Shown piece after piece: positions 6,540 to 53,325 of a stretch of 64,000 bases of DNA (position 1 is the first letter of the stretch; each line of letters begins with the position of its first letter). The position numbers and the translations under genes were made by a program. Source of the stretch: Thermodesulfobium narugense DSM 14796 (lineage in GTDB: Bacteria; Thermodesulfobiota; Thermodesulfobiia; Thermodesulfobiales; Thermodesulfobiaceae); NCBI RefSeq assembly GCF_000212395.1, contig NC_015499.1, forward strand, positions 1,251,421-1,315,420, in the 5' to 3' direction. The notes beneath the pieces are model-generated. The model did not search any database. It saw only the letters and a program-made list of their open reading frames with translations, and was not told the DNA's origin.

Positions 6540-9308
6540 GTGAACAAAAAAACAATAAATTTTATTTTTGAACAAAAAATCGATATCCCTCAGTCAAACT
6601 TTACTGAAGGAAATTTTCCAATTCTTACAGGTAATCTTATTGACAAACTAAGAAAAAGAAAAGATTGGATATTTATCACTGCATTTTCTCCTGACGGGAT
6701 CCACTTTGCTTCAGGCGGTTTTAATTCTAATATTCTTTTGTGGAATATTTTTAAAGAAAAACCCTTAGATAGCTTGAGTGGTCATGAAGATTGGATAATT
6801 GCGCTTGCTTTCTCCCACGACGGAAAATACCTTCTTTCAGGAAGTAGAGACAATAACATTATTCTTTGGTCTGTTCAAGAAAGAAAACTCATCACTAAAT
6901 TTGAAGGACACCAAAATAGAATTTCTTCGCTAGCATTTTCACCAGATGATAGCTTGATTGCATCCGGTGGGTACGATTCGACTATAAAAATCTGGGCTCT
7001 TGATTCCAAAAAACCAATAAAAACAATTGATACATCTCCTTTGTGGCCTACATCTATCTGTTTTGCTAGCAAGAATCTAAAGCTAATTGCAGGTTTCAAT
7101 GACGGAACAATAATTATTTATAATTTGAACAACTATTTTCAGACAAGTGTAATAAAGGTATTTCAAAATTGGATAGATTCAATAAAGTGCAGTAAAGATG
7201 AATTGCTTTTTTATGCATCAAACACAGATGGATTCATAAAAATATTAGAAACAAAAACTAGTAAATTAATCTTTAGCAAAAAAATCCCTTTCAAAGCCTC
7301 TTTATTTCCCTATAACGAGAAAAGCTTAAACTTTGTAGACAACTTAAGTATATATATGATGCTATACGAGAGAAGTCCTGAAAATTTTCTAAAGGGAATA
7401 AGAAACTACAACAACAATATTGAAAGTTACAGCCATAAGATATTTTTAAAAGATTATAAAGATTTTGCTTTTGATTTTTCAAAAAACTCAGATATCATAG
7501 CTTGTTCTGAAAGATCGAACTATATTTACATCTTCAATTCAAAAACCCAAGATTTTATAAAGATCGATATCTCTAGTTCCTGGATAAAAGCTCTTTCTAT
7601 ATCTGATGACGGCAATTTGCTGGCTGCTGGAGGATATGATGGAGAAATAAAGATATTTTCGCTTAAGACTGGATATTTAATTAGTTCAATTATTGACCAT
7701 GCCTCATGGATAAATTCCTTAAAATTTTCAACTGGTAGCAAATTAATAGCTGCTGGTTTAGAAGATGGAACTATTTTGATCATAAAAATTAAGGATATGG
7801 AAGTTGTAGAAAAATTTAACCTTAGTAATAGCATATATAAACTAGACTTTTTTAACAACAACAAGTTTGTTTTAGTATCTACAATAGATGGCAATCTATT
7901 TAGAATTGACTTAGCCAATAAAGAAATTGAATTAATTCAGAAGTTAAACAACTCATGGATTTCAAACTTTGCTCTTTTAAATACCGAAAAAGCTTTTATT
8001 ACAGCTTCTGAAGACGGTTATCTCTATTTAATAGAAAATAATAAAGTAATAAATAGTAACAAAATTCACGATTCAGAAATAACAATGTTAGAACTATTAG
8101 ACGATAATACTTTACTTACCGGTTCTCTAGACTTATTTTTAAAGCAAGTTAACTTAACCGATCTAAAAGTTGTTTCTGAAAAAAGATTTGATGGCTTACC
8201 TTTAGCATATAATAAAAATTTTAACAAGTTGTTTATCTCACATTTTAGAAACATATCTATATATAATAGAACTGATTCACAAGAATTAGGAAATCCAGAA
8301 CTTAATAAACCAACAATAGAATTTAATTTTGACTTTAATTCAAAGCAATTTAATATATCAAAAGATTGCGAGATTTTATTCATATTAAAGGGCAATAATC
8401 AATTAGAAAAGATATCTTTAACAAATCTTAACGCTTTGTTTCAAATAAAGCCATTAGAACCTATAGTAACTTTCTGTAATAGTTTTGATTTTTCTAAATT
8501 AGTTACTGGCCATTTTAATTCTGAGATAAAAGTTTACGATACTGAAAAAAATCAAATTATCAAAGAATTAAAGTCATATGAAGGTTCAATAATATCTTCG
8601 ATTAATTTGTCGATAGACGAAAGTTTTCTCCTTGTAGGCTTTGAAGATGGAACCATTGAATTGTGGTTATTTAATGAAGAAAAAAATCTCTGGTGCATAA
8701 GTAATAACTCTGAACCAATTAGCAAGCTAACATTTAGTTATGACAAGTTATTTTTCATATCAAAAAATAAATATAGTTTAGACACGGATCTGTGGTCTAC
8801 TATTGAGGGTACAAAGCTTGGAACTTTCCCAAACAAAAATTTTTGTTTTAAAAGCTTTGCTTTCTCTCCAAATTCAGAATCAGTTTTGTATCTAAATGAC
8901 AAAAATCAACTCTCCATCTGGTTTTTGAAGGAGGGAAAGGAAATAACAATTCCTGAAAAAAAAGATGAACCCTTTATAACATATTTCTCTTACTCTCCGG
9001 ATTCATCAAAAATTGTAGTAGGTTATATTGATGGTACATTACAAATATTTTCGCTTGAAGGAGAACTTATAAAAGAAGAAGATAACAAATCTAGTTCTAT
9101 TACTTTTATATTGTTTAAAGATGAAAAATCTTTCTTTACCTCTCATCTGGATGGATCAATCAGAATTCATACACTGGAAGATTTCTTAGATATAGAACCT
9201 ATTTTTGCTCACCATTCATCAATAGATTTTCTGTCTTATAACGCTGAAAAAAATCTTTTAGCCTCTTATTCCACTATAGAACATACGTTAAAAGCATGGA
9301 ACTTATAA
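6540..9308 (+). CDS. Large WD40-repeat protein
   Basis: This 922-residue protein is almost entirely WD40 repeats from about residue 40 to the last residue. Clear units include AFSPDGIHFASGG..ILLW, AFSHDGKYLLSGSRDNN..LW and AFSPDDSLIASGGYDSTIKIW. Degenerate ones continue to the C-terminus (SYSPDSSKIVVGYIDGT, ending KAWNL). Roughly two or more beta-propellers are expected. No signal peptide, membrane segment or catalytic domain (kinase, caspase, NB-ARC) is visible, so it is probably a cytoplasmic scaffold. The start is GTG with no convincing Shine-Dalgarno; a TATAAT lies at 6502-6507. The gene is monocistronic and its partner is unknown. Confidence 0.85.
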   Translation: MNKKTINFIFEQKIDIPQSNFTEGNFPILTGNLIDKLRKRKDWIFITAFSPDGIHFASGGFNSNILLWNIFKEKPLDSLSGHEDWIIALAFSHDGKYLLSGSRDNNIILWSVQERKLITKFEGHQNRISSLAFSPDDSLIASGGYDSTIKIWALDSKKPIKTIDTSPLWPTSICFASKNLKLIAGFNDGTIIIYNLNNYFQTSVIKVFQNWIDSIKCSKDELLFYASNTDGFIKILETKTSKLIFSKKIPFKASLFPYNEKSLNFVDNLSIYMMLYERSPENFLKGIRNYNNNIESYSHKIFLKDYKDFAFDFSKNSDIIACSERSNYIYIFNSKTQDFIKIDISSSWIKALSISDDGNLLAAGGYDGEIKIFSLKTGYLISSIIDHASWINSLKFSTGSKLIAAGLEDGTILIIKIKDMEVVEKFNLSNSIYKLDFFNNNKFVLVSTIDGNLFRIDLANKEIELIQKLNNSWISNFALLNTEKAFITASEDGYLYLIENNKVINSNKIHDSEITMLELLDDNTLLTGSLDLFLKQVNLTDLKVVSEKRFDGLPLAYNKNFNKLFISHFRNISIYNRTDSQELGNPELNKPTIEFNFDFNSKQFNISKDCEILFILKGNNQLEKISLTNLNALFQIKPLEPIVTFCNSFDFSKLVTGHFNSEIKVYDTEKNQIIKELKSYEGSIISSINLSIDESFLLVGFEDGTIELWLFNEEKNLWCISNNSEPISKLTFSYDKLFFISKNKYSLDTDLWSTIEGTKLGTFPNKNFCFKSFAFSPNSESVLYLNDKNQLSIWFLKEGKEITIPEKKDEPFITYFSYSPDSSKIVVGYIDGTLQIFSLEGELIKEEDNKSSSITFILFKDEKSFFTSHLDGSIRIHTLEDFLDIEPIFAHHSSIDFLSYNAEKNLLASYSTIEHTLKAWNL

Positions 9309-46433: not shown

Positions 46434-47537
46434 TCAAACAGACACAATATTAGTAATAAGTTTTTTTATATTATCTTTGCCGCTTTTAACATAATTAAAA
46501 TAAAATCCCATTTGACCAATTTCACTAAATAAATAATTTCTTAAAATATTAAATTCTTTGCCTTTTGGTTCAATGTTATAAGTAGAAACAGCAACTTCAC
46601 TAAGATGTTTAATAGAAGACTTGGCTGCAAATACTGTTAAAACATAGTCATGATCCCCAAGATGAGTAATAAACCATTCTGGATAAAATGGTTTAGGAAG
46701 AGTAAAATTACCATCATTATCATAATCCAAAAAACCATTCTTAACAGGATCTATACCTGCAAGAATTGATCCAGCAAGAATCCATGTAGCCACTAACTTT
46801 TCTCCTTCATGACTACCAGGATGCTCATGAGCGCAAGCCTGTGCAATTACAACTTTAGGCTCAAAACCTCTCTTTATAGCTTCAGCAATACTATAGATAT
46901 GGTGTTCACCAGTCTTACAGAATTGAAGTTCTGGCCTGGAAGAACCTTCATCTAACCATTGAAAAACCCAGGGCTTTTCAAGATCGTGAAGAACTTGTGC
47001 AGCTATAACTACATCGTTATCTAGTCCTTCCTTAAAGCACCATTCATAATTCTTTATGATCCCTTTTGCATTGCCCAAATTTTCAGCAACATGAACCACA
47101 AGACCACCAGGATAAGAATGATGAGATTCATACCCACTTCCAGGAGAAGCTAAAGAGGAATACTCTTTAATTGGCTTAGGAAAATCCCAGGTTTTTTCTA
47201 CAAATCCTCTGTCTATAATTAAATTTTTAATTTTTTCTAATTCGCTTGAGTTGTAGTCATAGTAAAAAGTTGGTACAGGATTTAACCATGCCTGTTTTAG
47301 CTTGTTTTTCAATTCTAAATCTTTAACTTTATCAATAAGTTCTAAATTAAAATTCCAGCATTTTTGAACTAAATTTGAATTTTTAGCCATTTCTTCTGGA
47401 GTCATCGTCAAACAATCTTTAAAGCTAATACTTTTTGTAGAAGCAAAGCTCTCATCTTGGGGCCATATTAAATCCTTTGTCACAAAGGTCGAAGCCCCTA
47501 AGATTGCAATTAATTTAAAAAAATCTCTTCTGTCCAT
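46434..47537 (-). CDS. Tat-exported HD-domain protein
   Basis: This 367-residue protein starts with a twin-arginine-type signal (DRRDFFKLIAILGAST). The mature part contains HD-like metal motifs: SHHSYPGGLVVHVAEN, AAQVLHDLEKPW, EHHIYSIAE and ACAHEHPGSHEG. HD hydrolases usually act in the cytoplasm on nucleotides, so an exported folded one is unusual. It lies downstream of a Tat-type alkaline phosphatase on the same strand, with a terminator between them. Substrate unknown. Confidence 0.8.
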   Translation of the reverse strand: MDRRDFFKLIAILGASTFVTKDLIWPQDESFASTKSISFKDCLTMTPEEMAKNSNLVQKCWNFNLELIDKVKDLELKNKLKQAWLNPVPTFYYDYNSSELEKIKNLIIDRGFVEKTWDFPKPIKEYSSLASPGSGYESHHSYPGGLVVHVAENLGNAKGIIKNYEWCFKEGLDNDVVIAAQVLHDLEKPWVFQWLDEGSSRPELQFCKTGEHHIYSIAEAIKRGFEPKVVIAQACAHEHPGSHEGEKLVATWILAGSILAGIDPVKNGFLDYDNDGNFTLPKPFYPEWFITHLGDHDYVLTVFAAKSSIKHLSEVAVSTYNIEPKGKEFNILRNYLFSEIGQMGFYFNYVKSGKDNIKKLITNIVSV

Positions 47538-47707: not shown

Positions 47708-49303
47708 TTATACAACGTGTAGTTTTAAACTTCTTGCCATTTTTTCATATGAGTATTCTTTATAGTATGCTTGCAAATAAGACCTTGCTTCTTCTTTTGA
47801 CATTGTAGGGTTTTTATAGCTTTTGATGTTCAAAAAAGACAACATAACGTTATAAAGTTCAGTATTCTCAATCCTTCTTGATGGCAAGAGTTCTCTAGAG
47901 CGATAACCATAAGCCATCACAACCTGATCCTCACCAGTGTGAGTTGTTGAAACAAAATAAATATTACCCCTACGAAGCAAGGCTTTTCCTTTTTGATCTC
48001 CATCTTCTGATACCTGATATGCACATTTTGCAAGCACAGCCCCAAGAGCACACGATTCGTAAGCACGATATAGATAATTTCCAGTAACACCGTTATATTC
48101 AGGACTTCTTGAATCTATAATCATTTGTGCTTCATCTGGATCTATATAAAAACCTGTATAATATTCAACTATATCTTGAACTTCTTTAGGACTTTTATTG
48201 TCAATTTTCTTAGCAATGTAAGGTATGCTTGCTTTTACCTGCTTATACTTTAAAAATGCCTCAGTAGAGTCATTATAATCTGCTCCAGTTCCAAATACGT
48301 TAAAACCGCCTGTTCCATGATCACTTGTTACAATAACAAGTGTTTTTGGATTATTTTTAATATATTGATCAACAACATCTAAAACTTGATCAAGCTCTGC
48401 TGTATCCATCATAGCCCCATATGCGTCATTTGCATGATTCGCATGATCAATTCTACCAGCTTCAATCTGTAAAACAAAGCCCTTTTTTGATTGTTGAAGC
48501 TTCTTGAGAGCAACTGCGCTCATAAGAGCAAGAGAAGGTTGACTGTCAAGATTTTTATCATTTAGTCTATCAAGGTAATAATCAATGTGTGATTTGTTGA
48601 AAAGTCCTAAAATTGTCTTACTATAGTCTATATTTTTTAATTGATCTTTTGTGGTAAATATTTGATATCCTTCTTTTTTGAAATCAGACAAAGTGTCGCT
48701 CTTCAACTTTGGATTTACCTCTTTGCTAAAGTATTTTAAACCACCACCCATAAGCACATCAGGTTTCAAAACTAGAGCATCCAAAGCAATATTAGCCTCA
48801 TCGTCTCTATCTTTGTTGTGAGAATACCATGCAGCTGGAGTAGCATGAGTAACACGCGTTGTAGTAACAAATCCAACCTCATAACCATTTTCTTTTGCAA
48901 GTTCCCCTATTGTTCTAAGCACTTGACCATTCGGTAAAACGCTTAGAAAATGGTTTGCACCCTTCGATCCTGTCGCCCACGCAGCACTGGCAGGCGCAGA
49001 GTCGGTAACTACGCTTGTTAGTGATTCCGTACCCATATAGGTGATTGTATTATCTGGATCTCCAAACTTTTTATAAAAAGTAGTAGTTTTTCCCACGTTG
49101 CTTCTTAAACTGTTTAGAGCTGTCAAAGTTGATATAGGCATGCCATCACCAACAATAAAAACTATTCCAGGTTTATCAGTTTTTTCAAATTTTATTGTCT
49201 CTCCTACTTGGTCGATCTGATTAGCATAAACTGATGGATTAATTAAAAGCGTAGCAAGCGTAGCACCAAAAACCTTAATTGCTTCTCTACGGCTAATTTC
49301 CAT
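47708..49303 (-). CDS. phoA: Alkaline phosphatase, PhoA family (Tat-exported)
   Basis: This periplasmic phosphomonoesterase has 531 residues. The signal SRREAIKVFGATLATLL has twin arginines. The nucleophile S102 lies in TDSAPASAAWATGSKG, matching the E. coli DSA motif, and metal ligands occur in GRIDHANHANDAYG and VTSDHGTGG. The family releases phosphate from organic phosphate esters. The RBS AGGAGGG is strong, and a four-copy Pho-box array lies 112 bp upstream, so phosphate limitation is the probable inducer. Confidence 0.94.
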   Translation of the reverse strand: MEISRREAIKVFGATLATLLINPSVYANQIDQVGETIKFEKTDKPGIVFIVGDGMPISTLTALNSLRSNVGKTTTFYKKFGDPDNTITYMGTESLTSVVTDSAPASAAWATGSKGANHFLSVLPNGQVLRTIGELAKENGYEVGFVTTTRVTHATPAAWYSHNKDRDDEANIALDALVLKPDVLMGGGLKYFSKEVNPKLKSDTLSDFKKEGYQIFTTKDQLKNIDYSKTILGLFNKSHIDYYLDRLNDKNLDSQPSLALMSAVALKKLQQSKKGFVLQIEAGRIDHANHANDAYGAMMDTAELDQVLDVVDQYIKNNPKTLVIVTSDHGTGGFNVFGTGADYNDSTEAFLKYKQVKASIPYIAKKIDNKSPKEVQDIVEYYTGFYIDPDEAQMIIDSRSPEYNGVTGNYLYRAYESCALGAVLAKCAYQVSEDGDQKGKALLRRGNIYFVSTTHTGEDQVVMAYGYRSRELLPSRRIENTELYNVMLSFLNIKSYKNPTMSKEEARSYLQAYYKEYSYEKMARSLKLHVV

Positions 49304-49394
49304 AAAATTTCCCTCCTAAAATTTTTAAAAATTTTGACTAAAAAATTAGAAATTAACTTGATCCTTAAAATTAATATTATGGTCATATCTTTGA

Positions 49395-49400
49395 TATATA
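49395..49400 (-). promoter_or_regulatory. Candidate -10 element of phoA
   Basis: TATATA on the minus strand lies 14 bp downstream of the last Pho-box hexamer, the arrangement expected for PhoP-activated promoters that lack a good -35. Confidence 0.45.
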
Positions 49401-49414
49401 GTTTATTAATTACA

Positions 49415-49453
49415 TGTTAAAAAGATGTTATTATTAAGTTAATTTAAAGTTAA
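49415..49453 (-). promoter_or_regulatory. Pho box: four TTAACA-like hexamers at 11-bp period
   Basis: Read toward phoA, the minus strand carries TTAACT, TTAACT, ATAACA and TTAACA at 49448-49453, 49437-49442, 49426-49431 and 49415-49420, each separated by exactly 5 bp. This matches the Bacillus PhoP binding consensus (TTAACA-like repeats with 4-6-bp gaps), placed upstream of an alkaline phosphatase. Confidence 0.75.
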
Positions 49454-49482
49454 AGTCACAATTAAAAGATTTAAAAAATCTA

Positions 49483-49565: not shown

Positions 49566-50858
49566 ATGGAAGCTAATCAAAAAAAGATTAATCCTTGGGA
49601 TGTCTATCCAGGCGCATTTATTGGTTGGATGGTGGACGGTTTTGATCTAAGCATGATGTTCTTGTTAATACCTATTCTTGCACCTCAGTTTTTCCCAAAG
49701 GAATCAGCATTTGCTATTATTGGGGTCTGGAGTATTTATACTATTACTCTTGTTTGTAGACCTTTAGGTGGCATTTTGTTTGGTATTCTTGGCGACAAAA
49801 TTGGCAGAAGAAAAGCAATATTTGCTGCAGTAGCTGGTTTAGGAATTTCTGTCTTTGTTACTGGATTTTTACCAAATTATCATAGTATAGGAGTTTGGGC
49901 TCCAATTTTATTGACATTTTTAAGAATACTTACAGGAATATTTGCAGGCGGAGAATACAGCAATAGTGCAGTTATAATAGTAGAATCAGCAGAAAAAAAT
50001 AAGAGAGGCCGTTGGGGAGGAGCAATCCAGGCAGGATATGCGGTAGGATTTTTGATTGCTGCAATATTATTTTTATTTTTACACTACGCAATTCCAAAAG
50101 AGAGCTTTGCAAATTATGGCTGGAGATGGATGTTTTGGTCTTCTATAGTCTTAACGGTAGTTGCACTTCTTGTTGTAAGATACAGAATGATAGAATCAGT
50201 AAGATGGGAAAAAGCAAAAGAAGAAGGCAAAACTAAGAAAATGCCTTTAATTGAAATTTTAAAAAGTGGGACAACATTGAAAGAAGTTCTTACAGGAATT
50301 CTTTTCATGGTAGGAATGTCCTGGATATATGGCCTAACTCTTGGATTTTTCCCTACTGTTTTAGCATTAGGAAAACAGTTTGTTTTTCCACAAACTCTTT
50401 ATGTTGTAATAATAGCACTAACTGCAGCAGTAATTGGATATCTTTCTTCAGGTTTTGTAAGTGATTATATCGGTAGAAGAAGAACTGTCATAACATTTTC
50501 ATTAATAGCAATCATAATTTCATTGTTTGCAACTCAAATCATCTCAAAAACAACTAACTTTACATATTGTGCTGTATTTGCAAGCATATTAGGTTTTTTT
50601 TCTGCTGGACTATATGGAGTCACACCCACTTACTTATCTGAAAGATTTTCTACACACATTAGAAGCACCGCTGTAGGCATCTCTTTTAACTTTGGCTTTA
50701 TATTCGGAAATTGGGGAACAGCCATTCTATTATTTTTTACTAAAATAACATATCCTAACTTCCCTATTATGTGGAGTGCTTTTATAATATTTGGAGAAGT
50801 TCTTGTTATGCTTTCAGCTTTACTATCAAAGGAGACAAAAGATATTGAATTACATTAG
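49566..50858 (+). CDS. MFS transporter of the metabolite:H+ symporter type (TcuC-like)
   Basis: This 430-residue permease has 12 predicted helices. The MFS signature GILGDKIGRRKAIF lies between helices 2 and 3, and a related one, VSDYIGRRRTVI, is in the second half. It starts the operon containing TcuA and TcuB homologues, so it probably imports citrate, tricarballylate or a related carboxylate, as TcuC does in Salmonella. The RBS GGGAGG is well placed. Substrate remains inference from context. Confidence 0.88.
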   Translation: MEANQKKINPWDVYPGAFIGWMVDGFDLSMMFLLIPILAPQFFPKESAFAIIGVWSIYTITLVCRPLGGILFGILGDKIGRRKAIFAAVAGLGISVFVTGFLPNYHSIGVWAPILLTFLRILTGIFAGGEYSNSAVIIVESAEKNKRGRWGGAIQAGYAVGFLIAAILFLFLHYAIPKESFANYGWRWMFWSSIVLTVVALLVVRYRMIESVRWEKAKEEGKTKKMPLIEILKSGTTLKEVLTGILFMVGMSWIYGLTLGFFPTVLALGKQFVFPQTLYVVIIALTAAVIGYLSSGFVSDYIGRRRTVITFSLIAIIISLFATQIISKTTNFTYCAVFASILGFFSAGLYGVTPTYLSERFSTHIRSTAVGISFNFGFIFGNWGTAILLFFTKITYPNFPIMWSAFIIFGEVLVMLSALLSKETKDIELH

Positions 50859-50867
50859 TTTGTTGTT

Positions 50868-52244
50868 ATGGATTTCGACGTTATAGTTGTAGGAGGCGGA
50901 AATGCAGGCCTTTGCGCTGCAATGAGCGCAAAAGAAAACGGCGCAAAGGTTTTATTATTAGAAAGATCCCCAATATTTTATAGAGGAGGAAATAGCCGCC
51001 ATACAAGAGATATAAGATATGCACACGATAAACCTAATAGATACACTCTTGGTTCATATACAGCAGAGAATTTTTATAATGATTTGCTCGATGTAACAAA
51101 GGGCGAAACAAACAAAGAATTAGCAAGATTTTTTGTAGAAAAATCTCAAGATATTATTCTCTGGATGCAAAATCACGGATGCAAATTCCAACCAACAATA
51201 AAAGGCGCACTTCATTTATCAAACAGCGTTGCATTCTTTAGTGGTGGGGGGAAATCGCTTGTCAATAATTATTATCAATATTGTAAAAAAATAGGTGTAA
51301 AAATTATCTACAATGCATTTGTAGTCGATTTGAAGTTTAAAAACGAAAAATTCTATTCTGTTGTGGTTAACTACAAACATAGCCTTCATGAAATTACCGC
51401 AAAGAGCGTGGTGCTTGCATGTGGCGGATTTCAGAGTAATATGGAACAACTAAAAAAAATTTGGGGAGACAAAGCAAAAAATATAATAATTAGAGGCACA
51501 CCATATGATGAGGGAAATATTTTCAAAGTTTTAATAGAAAACGATGCAATGCCCATTGGAGATCCAAAAAATGCTCATATGTTAGCATTGGACGCAAGAG
51601 CACCCAAATTTGATGGTGGTATAGTAACCAGGTTAGACTGTATACCCTTTGGTATAGTTGTAAATAAAAATTCTGAAAGGTTCTACGATGAAGGAGAAGA
51701 CATTTGGCCAAAAAGATATGCAATTTGGGGACATATATTAATTAACCAACCTGATCAGATTGGATATGCAATTTTTGATTCTAAAGTATTAAATCTTTTT
51801 ATGCCTTCCGCTTTTCCTGCATTTAGTGCCCACTCTCTAGAAGAACTTTCTAGAAAACTAGGTCTTAATTCATACAAATTAATAGAAACTATAGCAAATT
51901 ATAATAATCATTTATCATTAGGAAAATTCGATCCATCTATTTTGGATGATTGCAAAACTATTAATTTAGAGCCACCCAAGAGCCATTGGGCACTTCCAAT
52001 TGATAATCCACCATTTTATGCATATCCATTAAAACCTGGCATTACCTTTACCTATTTTTCTGTTAAAGTGAACAAAAACGCACAGGTTTTGAAAACTAAC
52101 GGCGAGCCTTTTGAAAACGTTTTTGCTGCAGGAGAAATTATGTCTGGAAATATATTGAGCAAGGGATATATGGCAGGAACAGGTTTGACTATTGGTACTG
52201 TTTTTGGTATTACAGCTGGGAGAGAGGCTGCAAATGTTCGATAA
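50868..52244 (+). CDS. tcuA: FAD-dependent tricarballylate dehydrogenase (TcuA-like)
   Basis: This 458-residue flavoprotein is of the fumarate reductase/succinate dehydrogenase flavoprotein group. The FAD motif VGGGNAGLCAA lies at 8-18, NSRHTRDIRYAH follows, and the C-terminal GEIMSGNILSKGYMAGTGLTIG closes the FAD site. TcuA oxidises tricarballylate to cis-aconitate. It lies 9 bp after the transporter gene and overlaps tcuB by 11 bp, giving the tcu gene set. Confidence 0.9.
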   Translation: MDFDVIVVGGGNAGLCAAMSAKENGAKVLLLERSPIFYRGGNSRHTRDIRYAHDKPNRYTLGSYTAENFYNDLLDVTKGETNKELARFFVEKSQDIILWMQNHGCKFQPTIKGALHLSNSVAFFSGGGKSLVNNYYQYCKKIGVKIIYNAFVVDLKFKNEKFYSVVVNYKHSLHEITAKSVVLACGGFQSNMEQLKKIWGDKAKNIIIRGTPYDEGNIFKVLIENDAMPIGDPKNAHMLALDARAPKFDGGIVTRLDCIPFGIVVNKNSERFYDEGEDIWPKRYAIWGHILINQPDQIGYAIFDSKVLNLFMPSAFPAFSAHSLEELSRKLGLNSYKLIETIANYNNHLSLGKFDPSILDDCKTINLEPPKSHWALPIDNPPFYAYPLKPGITFTYFSVKVNKNAQVLKTNGEPFENVFAAGEIMSGNILSKGYMAGTGLTIGTVFGITAGREAANVR

Positions 52245-53325
52245 AAATTTTGAGGATGCAAGATTTTCACTAAATATTTGCAACGCTTGTAGATATTGCG
52301 AAAACATTTGCCCTGTTTTCAAAGCAATAGAATTGAGAAGAACCTTTTCTGACAATGACATAATCTATCTGGCGAATCTTTGTCACGACTGTAGGGGATG
52401 CTACTACGCATGCCAATTCGCTCCACCCCATACTTTTGATATAAATATTCCAAAAATTTTTGGAACGCTCAGATTAGAAACCTATAAAAAACATAAAAGT
52501 TCAAGCTTCTTAAGAGAGATTATTGAAAAACCGCATTTTTTCAGTATTGCTATCTTTATAGTCTCGTTTCTTTTTTATACCATTTCGTCAATAATCTATA
52601 CAAAGAAATTGAGATTAATAGGTCTCGTTGAACAAAACGCTTCATTTTATAGTATTTTACCTGAAAACTTTTTAATTATCACAATGCTTATTCCATTCGT
52701 CATATCATTAACCATCTACATAAAAAACTTTATTGACTATTGCGATTACATTGGTATAAAGAAAGGTGATTTCCTTAAACTCTTTATCCATATTAGATCA
52801 TTAAAGAGCGTAATTTTATTAGAATTCCTTGATGGAGGAGGCTTTGGTTGCAATTATCCGAATGAAGAATACAGCCTTTCAAGAAGGATTTACCACCAAT
52901 TTGTATTGTTTGGATTCAAAATAATGTTCATATCTACTTTAATAGCTGCATTTATGAGTCATATTTTAAACACTTCTCCACCATATACTTTTACCAGCTT
53001 GCCAGTAGTATTTGGCACTATTGGCGGAGCATTATTGCTTTTAGGACTAACTGGACTGCTATATTTAAGAACTAAAATGGACAGGATACCCTATAACGAA
53101 AATACAAATGCAATGGATATTAATTTTATAACGATATTATTTCTGTCCGTTCTAACTGGTTTTCTAGTTTTACTTTTCAGATCTACAATATTTATGCCTA
53201 TTTTATTAATAATTCATTTAAGCATCGTCATAACCTTCTTTATAATGCTCCCCTTTAGCAAATTGCAGCATGCTGTCTTCAGGTATGTGTCAATATATAA
53301 GTATTTTTCTGAAATGAATAAATAA
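52234..53325 (+). CDS. tcuB: TcuB-like Fe-S/membrane electron carrier
   Basis: This 363-residue membrane protein has two ferredoxin-type cysteine clusters (CNACRYCENICP, CHDCRGCYYACQFAPPHTF) and about six transmembrane helices. TcuB re-oxidises TcuA-bound FADH2 and passes electrons to the quinone pool. The open frame begins at 52192, but ATG 52234 (after GGGAGAGAGG) is preferred because the conserved N-terminus starts there. It overlaps tcuA by 11 bp, indicating coupling. Confidence 0.9.
   Translation: MFDKNFEDARFSLNICNACRYCENICPVFKAIELRRTFSDNDIIYLANLCHDCRGCYYACQFAPPHTFDINIPKIFGTLRLETYKKHKSSSFLREIIEKPHFFSIAIFIVSFLFYTISSIIYTKKLRLIGLVEQNASFYSILPENFLIITMLIPFVISLTIYIKNFIDYCDYIGIKKGDFLKLFIHIRSLKSVILLEFLDGGGFGCNYPNEEYSLSRRIYHQFVLFGFKIMFISTLIAAFMSHILNTSPPYTFTSLPVVFGTIGGALLLLGLTGLLYLRTKMDRIPYNENTNAMDINFITILFLSVLTGFLVLLFRSTIFMPILLIIHLSIVITFFIMLPFSKLQHAVFRYVSIYKYFSEMNK

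Follow-up and report, generated by a model that had tools for sequence, protein, structure and literature searches.

A putative four-repeat Pho box upstream of phoA in Thermodesulfobium narugense and the predicted Pho regulon of its genus

The alkaline phosphatase gene (phoA) of Thermodesulfobium narugense DSM 14796 is preceded by four TTAAC-type direct repeats, which very probably form a Pho box, i.e., the putative operator of a response regulator of the PhoB/PhoP type. Judged from the DNA and protein sequences, the repeats are almost certainly a docking site for the regulator of phosphate starvation, and one of several such sites located at phosphate-scavenging genes. Several features by which Pho boxes are recognized were found here: direct repeats of 11 bp precede a phosphate-acquisition gene, and the same motif occurs at other phosphate genes and is conserved in relatives. 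The element lies in a stretch of 64,000 nucleotides (contig NC_015499.1, positions 1,251,421 to 1,315,420), referred to as the window; coordinates are those of the window unless the genome or a locus is named.

On the minus strand, between 49454 and 49416, the sequence upstream of phoA reads TTTAACtttaaATTAACttaatAATAACatcttTTTAAC, in which the hexamers TTTAAC, ATTAAC, AATAAC and TTTAAC are separated by the pentanucleotides TTTAA, TTAAT and ATCTT. A preliminary description of this DNA had reported four TTAACA-like hexamers, directed toward phoA in exact steps of 11 bp, and this is borne out both by the sequence and by the shuffling described below. The hexamers start, on the minus strand, at 49453 (TTAACT), 49442 (TTAACT), 49431 (ATAACA) and 49420 (TTAACA), with a pitch of exactly 11 bp, and their pentamers, in the order TTAAC, TTAAC, ATAAC and TTAAC, are direct repeats facing the gene (Table 1). 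A search of the genome for three strict TTWACA hexamers gave no match, because in most repeats the letter after TTAAC is T, A or G; the core was therefore taken to be the pentamer.

Table 1. Predicted features of the phoA upstream region and gene in the window.
Feature	Position	Strand	Evidence
Putative Pho box, four TTAAC-type units, 11-bp pitch	49416..49454	-	mismatch count, shuffles, top profile score in window
Repeat 1, TTAAC	49449..49453	-	sequence
Repeat 2, TTAAC	49438..49442	-	sequence
Repeat 3, ATAAC, one mismatch	49427..49431	-	sequence
Repeat 4, TTAAC	49416..49420	-	sequence
Possible degenerate fifth repeat, TTAAT	49405..49409	-	one-unit-shifted profile = 27.7; shares one base with the proposed -10
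Most likely -10 element, TAAACT	49400..49405	-	10 nt after repeat 4; TANNNT spacing rule
Ribosome-binding site of phoA, AGGAGGGA	49310..49317	-	read from sequence
phoA, alkaline phosphatase, twin-arginine-like leader SRREAIKVFG	47708..49303	-	Pfam PF00245, E 1.2e-69; leader read from sequence

Compared with a fourfold TTAAC, the box has one mismatch in 20 core letters. Shuffling of the intergenic region (262 bp) with its dinucleotides preserved gave this value in 0/2000 cases (best shuffle, three mismatches); when the pentamer was left free and the spacing could vary from 7 to 16, the real intergenic sequence outscored 300/300 shuffles. Core scores above 20, computed for the window plus six further genome stretches, were confined to the 11-bp spacing, with none at 7-10 or 12-16. 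A profile built without phoA placed the phoA site first on both strands of the 64-kb window, with 32.6 bits against 10.9 for the next independent site; its training sites had themselves been found through the TTAAC pattern, which the pstS box alone would also have suggested. The profile was applied to the window and to selected genome stretches, while the search of the complete genome relied on a pattern: (TTAACN6)x4 with at most one mismatch occurs at four sites, i.e., pstS (0 mismatches), phoA (1), 914475+ (1) and 1076359- (1), and the control search with the reversed pattern returned no site in the genome at up to two mismatches. A chance origin of the repeats could be argued from the AT-rich DNA (32% G+C in the window) and from similar patterns in unrelated settings in a survey of other genomes; however, it is opposed by the shuffles, the specificity for 11 bp, the independent profile ranking and the four genome sites versus zero for the reversed pattern, and is extremely improbable.

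The putative box takes the place of a -35 element, and its distance to the -10 is constant. A TANNNT hexamer is found exactly 10 nt past the last TTAAC in 16 of the 17 box-bearing promoters, orthologous and hence non-independent promoters being included in this count, and in six of the seven gene families; other distances are rare. Three boxes, a degenerate one at an arsC-like gene, an orphan box and one from another species of the genus (G003) with the symporter gene missing, were excluded from the count, and none of them has TANNNT at 10 nt. Since the 10-nt spacing is conserved in related promoters, TAAACT is most likely the -10 of phoA. A TATATA had been put forward earlier for this site; it is indeed present 14 nt past TTAACA, but its role as -10 is probably wrong by 5 nt, as it starts 15 nt past the last TTAAC, off the conserved spacing, and it was considered less likely. 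The accompanying remark that no good -35 exists agrees with a consensus scan, which yielded no sigma-70 -35/-10 pair at the site. E. coli phoA likewise has 10 nt from the end of its box (CTGTCATAAAGTTGTCAC) to TATAGT; because of this shared gap, the regulator would most likely sit in the -35 place and recruit the polymerase through sigma, as PhoB does.

The genome is a single contig of 1,898,865 bp, in which a search with a PhoB profile identified three OmpR-type regulators. The gene of one of them, 197178+, is immediately upstream of pstS, and a histidine kinase gene is divergent from it; the interval between this regulator gene and pstS contains TTAAC four times, in 11-bp steps and with zero mismatches. 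The preliminary description had made its reading depend on the presence of a PhoP/PhoB regulator in the genome, and a regulator of PhoB type is thus found adjoining pstS. Its best family model is PhoB (TIGR02154), at 203 bits and therefore below the equivalog cut-off of 296, and its alignment with E. coli PhoB shows 38% identity. PhoB-DNA structures show base contacts for R201 and R219, thymine contacts for T194 and V197, and E177 and E191 turned toward sigma region 4 (PMC3973317). The regulator 197178+ has kept R193, V197, R200, R201, R203, T217 and R219, as well as E177, W184, G185, V190 and E191, and departs from PhoB at T194 (to M) and H198 (to Y); most of the PhoB residues for contacting DNA and sigma are retained in the alignment. 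Its best match among solved structures is RegX3 (2oqr, E 1.3e-50), while B. subtilis PhoP is present there with its receiver domain only (1mvo) and scores below it. SenX3-RegX3 is counted as a phosphate system (PMC4415409); mycobacterial RegX3 is actinobacterial, and its likeness to 197178+ is that of a protein match.

Direct repeats of about 10-11 bp are the targets of several OmpR-family regulators. As this genome encodes three proteins of the family, the phoA element might be the operator of 1751950- or 1518262+, with phoA answering a different signal. This is very unlikely, as the perfect box adjoins the pst-linked regulator, the targets of the boxes are phosphate genes, and both other regulators are without R193 and one of R200/R201. 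The kinase divergent from 197178+ (genome 196248-197153, minus strand; L010:9249-10154) has 301 aa and matches the PhoR model weakly; unlike E. coli PhoR and the two paralogous kinases of the genome, it lacks any predicted membrane segment (hydropathy at most 1.39), and looks like a soluble PhoR-type kinase.

Comparison within the genus was made on four genomes, there being no other relative below domain level among the genomes compared, and the box at pstS is mismatch-free in all four species. Family models support pstS, pstC, pstB and phoU; pstC, a second permease gene, pstB and phoU are clustered away from pstS, and a weaker box with two full repeats lies upstream of pstC. The box at 914475+, also conserved in 4/4 species, is upstream of a gene of 123 aa (genome 914578-914949, plus strand; L022:4579-4950) with no Pfam match, which is possibly a hitherto undescribed phosphate-starvation gene. 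A further box with two mismatches, 859529+, precedes the gene of a secreted beta-propeller/phosphoesterase protein (PF04185), and its counterparts in the other species fit the pattern better; in two of these, G001 and G002, it has a divergent partner box, which lies upstream of a gene related to the phosphate:H+ symporter family (TIGR00887 is its best match, below cut-off). A weaker box is present upstream of the arsC-like gene (918324+), with a similar weak site in G003. The one-mismatch, four-repeat orphan box (genome 1076359-1076397, minus strand; L023:10360-10398) faces a transposase gene and an rRNA-like region, and was perhaps split from its target by insertion. A literature search on the Pho regulon in Thermodesulfobium gave no relevant paper among the matches listed. 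The genome also has dsrA (549 bits), the reported match including one in-frame TAA.

The gene phoA is absent in the other three species of the genus, where its site has no ortholog for comparison. In G002 a cupin gene is found in its place and the half of the intergenic region carrying the box fails to align, while the divergent transporter gene is retained together with the DNA immediately upstream of it. As phoA and its box are missing together, they would therefore have been gained or lost together. The same comparison bears on whether the element is a repressor or dual site governing mainly the divergent transporter gene 49566+: the box is in the intergenic region common to both genes, at a distance of about 110 bp from the transporter gene, but it faces phoA with the conserved 10-nt gap to the -10, and the transporter gene of G002 persists with its proximal DNA where phoA and box are both absent; this role is very unlikely. 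The divergent set (49566-53325, plus strand), which is conserved in G002 and G003, comprises genes for an MFS transporter, an FAD protein and a 4Fe-4S membrane protein, and resembles a set for tricarballylate utilisation (TcuCAB-like). Downstream of phoA, on the same strand, 46434-47537 encodes a protein that carries a twin-arginine-like leader and matches no Pfam family; it is also missing along with phoA at the equivalent place in G002.

The PhoP-P boxes of Bacillus subtilis are made of TTAACA-type repeats, and the phoA box is alike in core letters, direct orientation and 11-bp pitch. In the Bacillus-type PhoPR layout, the regulator and a membrane-bound kinase share one operon; unlike this, the Thermodesulfobium kinase and regulator genes are divergent, and no membrane segment is predicted for the kinase. 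A match labelled B. subtilis (L097) was considered as Bacillus PhoP and discarded, as it encodes a KdpDE-like pair and looks like a contaminant. The boxes of cyanobacterial SphR also have a TTAAC core, and their units of 8 bp are joined by linkers of 3 bp, which gives an 11-bp pitch (PMC1906773, Table 1), as in the example upstream of sphX, TTTAACCAaacCTTTACTAgggCTTAACCT; they are modelled as two or three units, with CC or CT preferred next (PMC1906773), whereas the Thermodesulfobium box has four units and mostly T or A next. PHO boxes in general, those of E. coli PhoB included, consist of direct repeat units of 11 nt (PMC4415409), but the E. coli box differs in its core, CTGTCAT rather than TTAAC, and has two units at phoA, not four.

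Outside the genus, a genome designated G132 has a TTAAC-type four-repeat box before a phoB-like gene (TIGR02154 best match, below cut-off), and another, G047, has one between the gene of a PnpS/PhoR-like kinase and a porin-pstS pair, likewise with the 10-nt spacing. The view of the element as a Bacillus-like PhoP-P arrangement thus stands for the letters and the pitch of a four-repeat Pho box, but not for specificity to Bacillus, and the paradox it implied, of a Bacillus-like box in a genome with Gram-negative traits, dissolves because cyanobacterial boxes and these two unrelated genomes share the TTAAC core and the 11-bp pitch. "Bacillus-like" would be a fair term for the letters, and offers no evidence of a Bacillus origin or of a Gram-negative oddity.

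When the fourfold TTAAC pattern was surveyed in 386 genomes, most of the sites had no phosphate gene; they included simple tandem repeats and the surroundings of outer-membrane-protein genes, among others. Outside the genus, therefore, a Pho box is not recognizable from the pattern alone. Two genomes, G211 and G341 (L164, L168, L171), carry arrays of TTAAC in 11-bp steps, with four to five units each, before several PorV/PorQ-like outer-membrane-protein genes, which suggests that these arrays may belong to a different OmpR-family regulon of equal pitch. Scanning of 80 loci with relatives of the regulator revealed no excess of 11-bp repeats over other spacings, and among them only the Aminicenantes contig L095 is similar, with three TTAACA-type repeats at 11 bp (8821-8848, plus strand). 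These repeats come directly after the regulator relative, in a layout like that of the pst-linked locus, and no phosphate gene is readable before the contig ends. It is conceivable, though rather unlikely, that Bacillus, cyanobacteria, this isolated lineage of phylum rank and other diderms have TTAAC at 11 bp in common as an ancient code for Pho operators, and that codes such as TGTCA in E. coli and GTTCACC in Streptomyces drifted from it later; the genus would then preserve both the old code and a membrane-free PhoR-like kinase.

With the Pho box as the preferred reading, phosphate limitation would switch on the kinase and the regulator encoded beside pstS, the former presumably phosphorylating the latter. 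The phosphorylated regulator may then bind the four TTAAC repeats head-to-tail, one molecule per helical turn of 11 bp; adjoining the -10 TAAACT without a -35, it would recruit RNA polymerase via sigma region 4, and the alkaline phosphatase would be turned on, as expected of a gene activated and induced by phosphate starvation.

The analysis provides a testable predicted regulon, which includes pstS, pstC, phoA, the phosphoesterase, the phosphate-symporter relative, the arsC-like gene and one uncharacterised gene, and a promoter rule (the last TTAAC, 10 nt and TANNNT) for the annotation of such genomes. The membrane-free kinase is an unusual object for study, and TTAAC as a Pho code is not peculiar to Bacillus. 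What is new is that a Pho switch of an ordinary type is mapped in an isolated, little-studied lineage.
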